The position numbers were made by a program, and so were the translations under genes. Positions 1-14,402 of a DNA stretch of 22,718 nt are shown in pieces. The DNA comes from a virus: positions 1 to 22,718 of IMG/VR virus record IMGVR_UViG_3300030329_003808; one strand, 5' to 3'. Every line of letters starts with the position of its first letter. Positions within the stretch are counted from its first letter, which is position 1. The notes under the pieces were generated by a model, which searched no databases, was not told the DNA's origin, and saw only the letters and a list, made by a program, of their open reading frames with translations.

Positions 1-552
1 CTGTTCTGCCAGGTCGCGTAGCGAGGGAGAACATTGATGCTCTTTCCAAAAATCAACGATTGCTTCATACACTCGCCGCTGTGTGGTCGTTAGGTCTTCA
101 CCTCTCGATAGCGCTAGTATGCGATCGCGTAAACGAGTTGCGCGTTCTGGGGTTTGTTTGCGCCACTTTGAGTCCCACATTTCGATCGCCGCCTCTACCC
201 AATTCTGCGCTTCAATCGCCGCTTTAAACTTTTTAAAACCTGCCAGGCGTGGTCTGCCAAGTTGAAAAGCCATGTTGATAAGCACATGCTGCGCTTCTCT
301 AGGGAGTTCAAAAAACGTATCAAATATCTCTGCACAGTCACGCGTTGCAATGGCAACGTCCTGCGTAAAAAGTTCAGTACATCGTTCATCAGTTATCTCA
401 TCTCCGACGTTTAGCGAAAACTCTGGGTCAGATTCCTTTAGCATGTGCCCGATGCCGACGGTTCGCACATTCTCAGAGCAAAAATAAACATCGAGTCGCT
501 TACCTTCATCGGCTGCAATCTCTTGACTCAGCCGTGGTATGTCGATTGTCAT
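1..552 (-). CDS. T4-type lysozyme (GH24 endolysin) with LexA-like winged-helix extension, C-terminus off window
   Basis: An open frame of 184 codons runs from an ATG at 552 to base 1 without a stop. Residues about 8-148 align with T4 lysozyme: the catalytic Glu is E16 in DEGKRL, TVGIGHML follows, and then DERCTELFTQDV, LINMAFQLG, LAGFKKF and SKWRKQTPERATRLRD. The protein should cut peptidoglycan at lysis. The T4 triad Glu11/Asp20/Thr26 maps to E16/C25/T31, so the aspartate is a cysteine. From about residue 153 the frame continues as LTTTQRRVYEAIVDFW and SPSLRDLAEQ, the pattern of the LexA N-terminal DNA-binding winged helix, with no intervening stop. The ATG overlaps the upstream stop (ATGA), so translation is probably coupled to the EF-hand gene. 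The lysozyme call is firm from the motifs. The fusion is seen directly, but its end is outside the window. Confidence 0.88.
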   Translation of the reverse strand, partial: MTIDIPRLSQEIAADEGKRLDVYFCSENVRTVGIGHMLKESDPEFSLNVGDEITDERCTELFTQDVAIATRDCAEIFDTFFELPREAQHVLINMAFQLGRPRLAGFKKFKAAIEAQNWVEAAIEMWDSKWRKQTPERATRLRDRILALSRGEDLTTTQRRVYEAIVDFWKEHQCSPSLRDLAEQ

Positions 553-884
553 TTTCCGTTCTTCCTGATGGCCTGGCTACCAAAATACACGCTGACCAAG
601 CCGCCGATTGTTAAAAAGAAAATGCTGCTCATCTCTGTCAGATTCTTGCCAGCATCGTCTAGCCCAAAAATGCTGCTCAACATCAGCAGGGCAGGAAACA
701 ACAAGAGCGATAAAAGCGCGAACCAAATCATGCGGAGCTGTGCATCCTGTTTCTGATCTTCGTTTTTCAACAACTCCAACTTGATCATCCGCTCACTACG
801 CAGGAACTCTTCATCGTCAACGACACCATCCCCATTCGTATCGAGGCGATTAAATTCAGAATCAGGCTGTAACGATTTGCTCAT
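549..884 (-). CDS. EF-hand membrane protein of the lysis cassette
   Basis: 111 residues. Residues 15-26 form a textbook 12-residue EF-hand calcium loop (DTNGDGVVDDEE: D15, N17, D19, G20, D23, E26). A charged helix follows (27-50), then two hydrophobic segments at about 52-73 and 86-103 and a short basic tail. The N-terminus probably faces the cytoplasm, but topology is not certain. It overlaps the holin gene upstream and the lysozyme downstream by ATGA junctions, so the three are translated as a unit. By position it could be a second holin, an antiholin or a lysis-timing protein. The family function is unknown to me; calcium binding is inferred from the loop only. Confidence 0.8.
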   Translation of the reverse strand: MSKSLQPDSEFNRLDTNGDGVVDDEEFLRSERMIKLELLKNEDQKQDAQLRMIWFALLSLLLFPALLMLSSIFGLDDAGKNLTEMSSIFFLTIGGLVSVYFGSQAIRKNGK

Positions 885-1252
885 TTGCCGACCCCCCTCA
901 CGCGCTCATAACTTCTACCGCCAGCAAGTCCTAACATTCCTAGAAGAATTGGCATCATCACTCCCGCGTCAGCTTGCGGTATAACAATGCCGAATCCTGC
1001 TGCGATAGGTGATACGAGAAAATTAATCATCAACGCCAAAACACAAACGTACCCGCACAGAGGTCGCCAACTTGATTGAAACCAGTTTCCTTTAGCGTCA
1101 GCCTTCAACACTTCAATTTGCTGGAGTGCTATTTCCTGCGCGTGGCGTTCTGACATCGTGCTAATTTCATGCGCCAACTTTTGTTTGGTATCGGCATCAG
1201 GAATAAATTTATCTAACAATCCCGTTACTGGCCCGATCAATTGTGTTATCAC
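881..1252 (-). CDS. 3-TM holin, gene-transfer-agent type
   Basis: 123 residues starting with GTG at 1252, which overlaps the stop of the NinG-like gene by one base (TAGTG). The N-terminal half is an amphipathic, charged helix (residues 15-52). The motif WFQSSWRPLCGYVC (57-70) leads into a long hydrophobic segment to about 91, and a second one spans 98-112. The WxQxxWRP motif ahead of membrane helices is the hallmark of the 'holin of 3TMs, for gene-transfer release' family. Such proteins permeabilise the inner membrane and release the endolysin. The lysozyme two genes downstream, in the same coupled cluster, supports this. No other holin is visible in this cassette apart from the EF-hand protein. 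Confidence 0.75.
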   Translation of the reverse strand: MITQLIGPVTGLLDKFIPDADTKQKLAHEISTMSERHAQEIALQQIEVLKADAKGNWFQSSWRPLCGYVCVLALMINFLVSPIAAGFGIVIPQADAGVMMPILLGMLGLAGGRSYERVRGVGK

Positions 1253-1662
1253 TAGCTTGCTTCCCTATTCTGTTCGCGGTAATACTCAATTTTTGTTATC
1301 AGATATTTGCGCGACCACTTCCACTTGTCAGTTGATTTTCGTTTTAGCGCCTCTACTGCCTCGTCACCAATTTCATCACGCAGCCGACGCTCGAACTCAA
1401 CGGGCTTGCCAGCAAAAAACTCATTGCATGTTGAGCATTGCGGTCGCACGTTATCCTCTTCGTATTTGGTCGGAGAATATGTGCGTGGAATGAAATGCCC
1501 TGCCTGACAGTTTCTGTCGCCCAGTCTGAGTGGCTTGTCACACGTGAAACACTTAGGCGGATGATTTGTTTTCACATAACGAGCAAACTCAGGCCACAGC
1601 GTGTTCTGCAACTGAGGGATCGTTTTATTCTCCAGTTTTCTTGGCCCCTTACGTCCGCGCAC
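1252..1662 (-). CDS. ninG: NinG/Rap-like recombination protein
   Basis: 136 residues from a GTG at 1662, preceded by a GGAGG ribosome-binding site. A zinc/HNH-like core is visible: C38-x2-C41, C52, GH at 55-56, then DNVRPQCSTCN with C76 and C79, followed by a helical, charged C-terminus. This is the arrangement of lambda NinG (Rap), which promotes Holliday-junction resolution in phage recombination pathways. Its position after replication genes and a NinB-like gene, directly before the lysis cassette, matches the lambdoid nin region. The start overlaps the preceding Cys-rich ORF by 14 bases. Lambda NinG is longer, so this is a short member. Confidence 0.8.
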   Translation of the reverse strand: MRGRKGPRKLENKTIPQLQNTLWPEFARYVKTNHPPKCFTCDKPLRLGDRNCQAGHFIPRTYSPTKYEEDNVRPQCSTCNEFFAGKPVEFERRLRDEIGDEAVEALKRKSTDKWKWSRKYLITKIEYYREQNREAS

Positions 1663-11969: not shown

Positions 11970-14402
11970 CTACCCAAATATGCTGCCAATAAGGTTGCCA
12001 AAAACTCGCTGTTTCCAAGCGTTGTCCTGATTCTCTATCTGCCCAAGATTGTGATAGGGCGACCCAGCGGATTGTCCATAGCCAGCGCCCAGATAAGATG
12101 TATCGCCACCTACAATACCTGGAGCGCCAACCTTCCCGCTAAGATTCATTAGCATGTTAGCCATCTCAATATCTCTGTTTGCCAGGCCCAAATCAGCCTG
12201 ATTGATGTCTCGCGCCTGCGCGAATCCTTGTGAGCCTATCTGCTGACCAGATTCAAAACGACTTGACTCAGCCTCTAGTTGGGCCTTATCTGCTGCCGTC
12301 TGCGCTTGCTGTAACGCTTCAAGCTGTCTCAAATCTTGACCGAATTCTTGTTCCTGACCGCCGAATAGTTGATTGTAGAATTGCTGATCACGGCTCAACC
12401 GCGTTTGATCTTGCGTCCTGCCGATATCAGCTAACTGCCCTGAATACTTTGCAGCCGTACCAATTGCCTGGTTCATCAGCTCTTGGAGCGTCCCGCCCGT
12501 GTTCAACCGTCCCTGTGCCGCTGCGCTACTCTCTATCGCACGTCGCCCCTCGTCCTGCAAAAAGCGCAAAGCAGGATCGTCAGGGTTGAAAGGGTTGATC
12601 TGGTTAACATCTGTGAAAATGGCATCAGGTATTGCCCCCCGCCCAATCTCGCTAACCATCTGGGCGATATCTAACTGGTTAGGCTGTACATCAACGAGCT
12701 GGCCTGTCCCTCGCTCGTCGGCCAAATCAATGCGCGGTTCATATTCTTCAAGCAGCGCATCGCGGTATCTGTCGATGTCAGTATCTGTAAAGCTGACGTC
12801 ATCAGCAGTGCCCCACGTACCGTCTGGGCCAGGGTCACCGCCTAATGTATAGAACGGATAATAAACATCCGCTCGGGTTTTCATCAGTTCTCGCAGCAAC
12901 GCGAGTTCAGCGTCGGCAGCGTCTCGGAGTTGGTCAGCCTGATATCTGCGCCACGCTTCTTCGATCAGCCCCGCACCGACCACATCGATGGGGTCTTGGA
13001 TGATATTCGTTACTGCATCGAATATCGTATCGCCAATGGTTTGGGTACTTGCCAAATCTCCTGTCGTGACACCTTCAACAGAACCGCCTGCCCCACCTTG
13101 ACCAATTCCGCCTTGACCCCCAGCGCCGCCTGCCGCCGTTGCCTGTCCTCCTTGCCCCCCAGCGCCGCCTGCCGCCGTTGCAGTTGTATCTCCAACGCTA
13201 CCACCTGTGGCTGTTGTATCTCCAACGCTACCACCTGTGGCTGTGGCATCAGCTTGACCGCCTTGCGCGTCAACATCGACATCAGTATCAACATCAGTCG
13301 TCTGGTCTTGATCGCCTCCCCTGACATCGACATCGGTTGTCTGCGTTTGATCGCCCAGCGCTATGTTGATCAGATCGATTATTCTCTGATCTGATGGATC
13401 AAGCCCAGGCCCGAAAACTGTAGTAATCCAATCCCAAATTGCTCTTAAATCCATTCCGCCACCATCGTCGTTGCCGCCTTGGTTATTACCGCCTTGGTTG
13501 TTACCGCCTTGGTTATTACCGCCCTGGTTGTTGCCGCCCTGGTTATTACCGCCCTGGCCTTCTAGCAAATCATTTTGATAATCGTCGTAGTCTTTTCCAA
13601 AAGCGCCGAGAATGAAGGCTATTAAATCTCGATCTTCATCACTCATTACCGTAAAATCTGGCCCAAAAATAGCAGCAATAATGCCGACAGTATCTAAGCC
13701 GCGATCATCTTGTTTTAACAACTCCCACATGTCTCTTTGCTCGTCGGTGAGTTCGAAATCGTCCTCTCCGCTGTCAGCCTTTCCATCCCACGCGACGTTC
13801 TCTAGCAAAAGGTCTATAAGAGCTGGATCAACAGCATCAAGATCGTAATCACCGAATATGGCTCTGAGAATTTCGTCCCGAGGGCCAGGTCTTGATGCTG
13901 TTTGCATCAATTCCCACATGTCGAGGTCTACAGCAGCCTCAGCATCACTCACAACGCCGTCTTGATTAAAATCTGACGGGTCAAAAGTTTGTTCGTCGTC
14001 CTGGCCTTGGTTTTGGTAGAACTCTTCTGGAGTTTGCCCCAGCATCCTGCGATTGAATTCCTGAATATAGATTTGGCGCAAATCATCACCATCTAACGGT
14101 GATGAATCGGGCGGGGCATTGGTGTACCAGGGGATATCGTCCGTATAATTGTTATCCTCTAAACCTGCCGCAATCAGGTCTTCTATAAAATAAGAATCAA
14201 CATCAATAGGGCGATTTGGGTCTGGTCGATATTTCCCGTCAATGTCAATCAGGCCAATGTCATCAGAAAACAAATCCTCACGAGCTAACGCCGCATTTAT
14301 CCAGCCTTGGACAGCTTGCTCATCACGCAGGAACGCTTCCATTTCCTCATTCGATAGTGATTTAAACCACTCACGCAACACATTTTGATTTTCTTCTGAC
14401 AT
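11970..14402 (-). CDS. repeat-rich 810-residue virion protein, DNA-transfer-protein-like C-terminus
   Basis: The ATG immediately follows the stop of the preceding gene. Residues 1-280 are very acidic, with an EF-hand-like loop DFNQDGVVSDAE (144-155). Two modules with a 63-residue offset follow (DMWEL at 161 and 224, AIFG at 181 and 244) and a weaker third (TVFG at 328). Next come five GGNNQ repeats (284-308), a DVDVD stretch, two GSVGDTTAT units (391-410) and Gly-rich repeats to 440. Residues 455-810 are helical and Gln-rich and end with a pattern found in podoviral DNA-transfer/ejection proteins (FLQDEGRRAIESSAAAQGRL, then NQLFGGQEQEFGQDL). It probably is packaged in the head and leaves with DNA. 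The EF-hand and repeats are unusual for that family. Confidence 0.65.
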   Translation of the reverse strand: MSEENQNVLREWFKSLSNEEMEAFLRDEQAVQGWINAALAREDLFSDDIGLIDIDGKYRPDPNRPIDVDSYFIEDLIAAGLEDNNYTDDIPWYTNAPPDSSPLDGDDLRQIYIQEFNRRMLGQTPEEFYQNQGQDDEQTFDPSDFNQDGVVSDAEAAVDLDMWELMQTASRPGPRDEILRAIFGDYDLDAVDPALIDLLLENVAWDGKADSGEDDFELTDEQRDMWELLKQDDRGLDTVGIIAAIFGPDFTVMSDEDRDLIAFILGAFGKDYDDYQNDLLEGQGGNNQGGNNQGGNNQGGNNQGGNNQGGNDDGGGMDLRAIWDWITTVFGPGLDPSDQRIIDLINIALGDQTQTTDVDVRGGDQDQTTDVDTDVDVDAQGGQADATATGGSVGDTTATGGSVGDTTATAAGGAGGQGGQATAAGGAGGQGGIGQGGAGGSVEGVTTGDLASTQTIGDTIFDAVTNIIQDPIDVVGAGLIEEAWRRYQADQLRDAADAELALLRELMKTRADVYYPFYTLGGDPGPDGTWGTADDVSFTDTDIDRYRDALLEEYEPRIDLADERGTGQLVDVQPNQLDIAQMVSEIGRGAIPDAIFTDVNQINPFNPDDPALRFLQDEGRRAIESSAAAQGRLNTGGTLQELMNQAIGTAAKYSGQLADIGRTQDQTRLSRDQQFYNQLFGGQEQEFGQDLRQLEALQQAQTAADKAQLEAESSRFESGQQIGSQGFAQARDINQADLGLANRDIEMANMLMNLSGKVGAPGIVGGDTSYLGAGYGQSAGSPYHNLGQIENQDNAWKQRVFGNLIGSIFG
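13183..13242 (-). repeat. 30-bp tandem duplication in the 810-residue protein gene
   Basis: Two consecutive perfect 30-bp units (13183-13212, 13213-13242) encode GSVGDTTATG-type decapeptides. A longer GC-rich direct repeat (CAGCGCCGCCTGCCGCCGTT near 13120 and 13160) encodes the neighbouring AAGGAGG units. The perfect identity suggests recent slippage and a length-variable region. Confidence 0.85.
13479..13553 (-). repeat. 15-bp tandem repeat array encoding GGNNQ
   Basis: Five 15-bp units differing only at synonymous positions (TTG/CTG-type and ATT/GTT alternations) encode five GGNNQ pentapeptides, followed by GGNDD. Synonymous differences mean the protein repeat is selected or the array is older than the 30-bp one. 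It forms a flexible linker between acidic and Gly-rich regions. Confidence 0.9.

Follow-up and report, generated by a model that had tools for sequence, protein, structure and literature searches.

A conserved in-frame fusion of a T4-type phage lysozyme and a LexA-type winged helix

T4-type GH24 phage lysozymes (PF00959; phrog_7 endolysin) and the N-terminal DNA-binding domain of LexA (PF01726; PDB IDs 3jso, 3k2z and 1lea) are both well known. Modular endolysins often carry accessory binding domains, such as cell-wall-binding domains, and in LexA-DNA structures the base contacts are made by the recognition helix. Here we describe a phage protein in which the two domains are combined, and among the phage records and the open literature that we searched it is this combination that is new. 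With the T4-type enzymes the protein shares the fold, the catalytic Glu and Thr and a holin-adjacent position, but the catalytic Asp is replaced by Cys, and a winged-helix tail of about 80 residues extends beyond the normal end. The tail shares three helices, a wing and an NAA-x-E motif with the LexA N-terminal domain. In contrast to LexA, however, the fusion has no S24 peptidase/dimerisation domain, its winged helix is placed behind an enzyme and not in front of a peptidase, and an extra C-terminal helix is present. The PHROG family that best matches the tail, phrog_3502, has no annotated function and consists of free-standing winged-helix proteins which, unlike the tail, are encoded by separate genes and are not fused to a lysozyme. 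T7 lysozyme, the gp3.5 amidase, also inhibits T7 RNA polymerase (PMC5445346). It provides an analogy only, as one phage protein for both wall cutting and transcription, since it has an unrelated amidase fold and acts through polymerase binding, without a DNA-binding domain; the fusion would thus resemble it in logic and not in descent. In the open literature that was searched, no paper described a LexA-type domain joined to a lysozyme or an endolysin.

The window, meaning the whole stretch of DNA that was analysed, is a 22,718-base virus record. A 184-codon open frame lies on its minus strand (552..1), begins with MTIDIPRLSQEIAADEG and is cut at codon 184 by the left edge of the record. The features of this frame were as follows.

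1..552, minus strand: lysozyme-winged-helix fusion gene, 3′ end missing at the contig edge (229-231 codons at full length in relatives)
106..552, minus strand: GH24 T4-type lysozyme domain, residues 1-149, from PF00959, the alignment of fused copies and the T4 fold found by Foldseek
505-507, 478-480 and 460-462, minus strand: E16, C25 and T31, the residues at the catalytic positions, from the alignment
1..99, minus strand: first 33 residues (152-184) of the LexA-type winged helix
70..72, minus strand: GTG codon 161, proposed as an internal start

The Phage_lysozyme profile PF00959 matched residues 16-141 of the window copy (1.9e-10) with 41.6 bits, compared to 39.7 and 42.8 bits for two fused relatives, L002 and L013, and a curated cut-off of 22.3. 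For the LexA_DNA_bind profile PF01726, the match to residues 152-183 reached 18.4 bits against a Pfam cut-off of 23.7, the tail being incomplete here, and relatives were therefore needed. As the contig of the window ends before the recognition helix, the wing and the C-terminal helix, these were read from L002 and L013.

The tail was present on five contigs, namely the window, L002, L013, L026 and L008. L002 (IMGVR_UViG_3300024344_000970) encodes a 231-aa protein that is 98% identical to the window copy across the shared 184 residues, and the two DNAs were 91.4% identical over 1,245 aligned positions. L013 (IMGVR_UViG_3300046532_002527), which was located via the gene downstream of the fusion, encodes a 229-aa protein of the same architecture with 53% identity overall. 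The two other copies are partial; L026 (IMGVR_UViG_3300030106_001721) holds the C-terminal part of the lysozyme and the complete tail, and L008 (IMGVR_UViG_3300030329_001093) holds the final 54 tail residues. The shared layout is a GH24 lysozyme, a linker of 2-3 residues, a complete LexA-type winged helix and one extra C-terminal helix. On L002, L013 and L026 the boundary was read through into a complete tail, and all three tails matched PF01726 above the cut-off of 23.7, with 37.9 bits (1.6e-9, profile positions 2-64 of 65), 42.0 bits (7.8e-11) and 41 bits, respectively. The initial annotation had described a lysozyme running in frame into a LexA-type tail, and this was borne out by the profile, fold and comparative evidence; in the window, L002, L013 and L026 alike, the stretch from residue 145 to 160 is free of stops and frameshifts. 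The in-frame join of the two domains is real and conserved.

The fusion has a narrow distribution. Among 65 related loci the tail was present in two, L026 and L018 (the label of the L002 contig in this comparison), and in the other 63 the lysozyme frame stopped at most 13 residues past the lysozyme match, which is the usual end. A search of the 65 loci with the tail profile gave no convincing second copy. Readthrough matches past the stop were seen in L021, L031, L048 and L075, but when these ORFs were searched with the tail profile none contained a LexA-like tail, and the gene that follows in L021 was unrelated. A tblastn search of 50,697 phage records with the tail gave nothing at E 0.01, and the combination of lysozyme and LexA-type domain was not found in these records, where the best 40 of 1,690 lysozyme-bearing records were inspected. 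The genome contigs that were searched gave one lysozyme relative, which was unfused. The contig PBQF01000053.1 (L098/L128), from a Parcubacteria MAG, carries an unfused lysozyme relative whose profile match spans two in-frame TGA codons, and despite its binning it is perhaps a misbinned phage contig.

Within the tail, the NCBIfam lexA profile aligned over positions 2-67 of 203 only, and the frame terminated about 18 residues past the PF01726 match; by both measures the S24 peptidase/dimerisation domain of LexA is absent. As judged from its sequence, the tail is a LexA DNA-binding domain without the peptidase, and because the peptidase domain is missing we class the protein as a GH24 endolysin with an accessory domain and not as a LexA repressor. 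The AlphaFold model of the whole fusion protein had a mean pLDDT of 85.7. For the tail, which was modelled together with its free-standing relatives, the best PDB matches by Foldseek were Thermotoga maritima LexA (3k2z, rmsd 1.6 Å) and DNA-bound Escherichia coli LexA (3jso, 1.5 Å). When the PDB was searched with the tail profile, LexA chains were the main matches and one designed repeat protein was in the top ranks. The recognition helix reads NAA-x-E in L002 and L013 and NAV-x-E in L026, and its counterpart in the alignment with E. coli LexA is NAAEE, which we take to be residues N41-A42-A43-E44-E45. After the wing follows an additional conserved helix with the motif HVR-x-FY, for which the LexA DNA-binding domain has no counterpart. 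Overall the tail carries almost no net charge, but from helix 3 onward it is positive. Since the LexA dimerisation/peptidase domain is absent, tight DNA binding would need another dimer contact. DNA binding by the tail is a prediction that forms part of the explanation preferred below.

The lysozyme part has the T4 fold by Foldseek comparison of the predicted model. E16, C25 and T31 were unchanged across the aligned fused copies. Compared to the Glu-8aa-Asp-5aa-Thr pattern, the Glu and Thr are correctly spaced and Cys25 occupies the position of T4 Asp20. Some GH24 members use Glu alone as the catalytic residue and the P1 enzyme has a Glu-Thr diad (PMC4188523); because such enzymes with a reduced triad have been described, muralytic activity of the fusion is plausible by analogy. 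No hydrophobic N-terminal signal or SAR segment was found in the fusion protein, and with a holin in the operon it would thus be expected to wait in the cytosol.

On the minus strand the gene order is NinB, a small HTH protein, NinG, a three-TM holin, an EF-hand protein and the fusion, and short overlaps link the last four genes from NinG onward. The neighbours were positioned as follows.

1252..1662, minus strand: NinG/Rap-type nuclease, upstream of the lysis cassette
881..1252, minus strand: holin of the GTA three-TM type (PF11351), two genes upstream of the fusion
549..884, minus strand: gene for a 111-aa protein that has hydrophobic segments and a single EF-hand; it shares 4 bp with the lysozyme gene

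The EF-hand protein is also encoded directly upstream of unfused lysozymes, at L019:2675-3004 and L021:2675-3004, and a calcium-responsive lysis accessory is a possible role for it. The 3′ end of the fusion gene is overlapped by a gene for a 131-aa protein (L002:4809-5201, L008:139-531, L013:1810-2202 and L026:357-749), downstream of which L008 has genes for a nuclease-like protein, a ParB-methylase, the small and the large terminase and the portal, the unprofiled names being read from the sequence. No Pfam family matched the 131-aa gene above cut-off. For PF06530, the Q-type antiterminators, the best E-value was 0.1, in one member, and the score was 12.6 bits compared to a cut-off of 26; being under the Pfam threshold, this did not place the gene in that family. 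A profile-profile comparison with PF06530 scored 26.3, and none of 40 shuffled controls scored above 16.2. The weak resemblance to Q-type antiterminators is suggestive only. An integrase and two repressor-like genes are present in the window, and the phage, which like its relatives with the fusion is uncultivated, is therefore probably temperate; its origin is probably marine, as relatives such as pelagiphage Aegir suggest. Elsewhere in the window (11970-14402, minus strand) lies a gene for an 810-aa protein that contains GGNNQ repeats and matched no PHROG, and L002 carries a cytosine-methyltransferase-like gene (587-1522) between the helicase loader and NinB that is missing at that place in the window.

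Between the window and L002, the lysozyme parts gave a dN of 0.024 and a dS of 0.36 (dN/dS about 0.07), and the first 35 tail codons gave 0.025 and 0.23 (about 0.11), all from small substitution counts. For the tails of L002 and L008, on similarly small counts, the values were 0.024 and 0.44 (about 0.06), or 0.019 and 0.49 when the overlap with the next gene was left out. The differences among close copies were thus mostly silent in both halves, and both halves therefore look to be under purifying selection, the pattern of functional domains. The maximum-likelihood tree placed the lysozymes of the fused copies (window, L002 and L013) in one clade (98/94) that adjoined the unfused relatives L019-L025, with L013 on a long branch. 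The best-matching family of the tail, phrog_3502, also matched small proteins in L104, L106, L111, L114 and L130. A free-standing winged-helix gene lies between the small and large terminase genes in L130 (4001-4420), L131 and L132, and just upstream of the large terminase in L129; the terminase neighbours were checked by profile for L130 and likened by sequence for the other three. Since free genes of this type occur in other phages, several of them beside terminase genes, gene capture is the likely origin, and the simplest history would be that the lysozyme gene took up its tail from a free-standing phrog_3502-type phage gene.

Taken together, the in-frame fusion, the two predicted folds, the purifying selection, the terminal position in a holin/lysozyme cassette and the single fused clade lead to the explanation that we prefer, at about an even chance of being right. 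It is that of a single cytosolic protein in which a holin-released GH24 endolysin carries a C-terminal DNA-binding winged helix of the LexA N-terminal type, which would most likely act as a regulator of the late operon. The fusion would accumulate in the cytosol, where the tail would meet DNA. It would bind DNA and regulate late transcription in step with the endolysin dose, with its own late operon as one possible target, and at lysis the holin would release the endolysin part to cut peptidoglycan. More tentatively, the endolysin may itself be a sequence-specific transcription factor that acts on a late-region operator, so that late or lysis gene expression is tuned to the accumulated enzyme. 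The coupling of lysis-enzyme level to transcription that the initial annotation had proposed is compatible with this evidence. The explanation is weakened by the near-neutral charge of the tail, by the absence of the dimerisation domain and by the target search, in which no operator was found. E. coli-type SOS boxes occurred at chance level, without enrichment, in the window and its relatives, and because the lysis genes overlap there is no operator directly upstream of the fusion. A 15-bp element, TTAGCGCTAATGCAA, which contains the perfect palindrome TTAGCGCTAA, is common to the non-coding late leaders of L008 (1603-2110) and L013 (2206-2545), at L008:1649 and L013:2209, and was absent from the examined stretches of L026 and L101; as a target of the tail it is only a lead.

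The winged helix could instead have turned into a binding module for something other than DNA, which aids the enzyme by contacting peptidoglycan, the outer membrane or a holin partner. The frequency of accessory binding domains in endolysins would fit such a role, as would the HVR-x-FY helix foreign to the LexA domain, but we consider it unlikely, as the tail retains the LexA-typical residues of the recognition helix, is positively charged from helix 3 on and matched no known wall-binding family in the profile searches. It is rather improbable that the tail holds the endolysin on DNA for storage or timing until the holin is triggered, with no part in transcription control. With a holin gene nearby and neither a signal nor a SAR segment, an endolysin should build up in the cytosol together with phage DNA, but the fold is of the sequence-specific type and not that of a bulk DNA binder, and to our knowledge there is no precedent for a DNA-tethered endolysin. 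A precursor that a protease cuts into a lysozyme and a free winged-helix regulator has a small chance; free homologues exist separately, so the domain can work alone, but the linker is just 2-3 residues long and shows no evident conserved protease site.

The initial annotation had also put forward the GTG at residue 161 as an internal start that would yield two proteins from one frame, which we regard as very improbable. Three copies have a start codon here (at residue 159 in L013), but no Shine-Dalgarno sequence precedes it, the codon in L026 is not a start, and the product would miss the start of helix 1. At the domain boundary of the fused copies no conserved start with a ribosome-binding site was found, and the other in-frame starts differed between copies. 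An assembly artefact or sporadic mutation, which the truncation of the window inside the tail might suggest, is ruled out by L002, L013 and L026, as independent contigs down to 53% identity carry the join and both parts appear to be under purifying selection.

If the tail binds DNA, a single protein would both measure and execute the end of the phage cycle, and the fusion would allow a direct test of lysis timing. T7 lysozyme sets a precedent for linking the two functions through an unrelated mechanism. If true, the fusion would be a clear case of the capture of a regulatory domain by a lysis enzyme.
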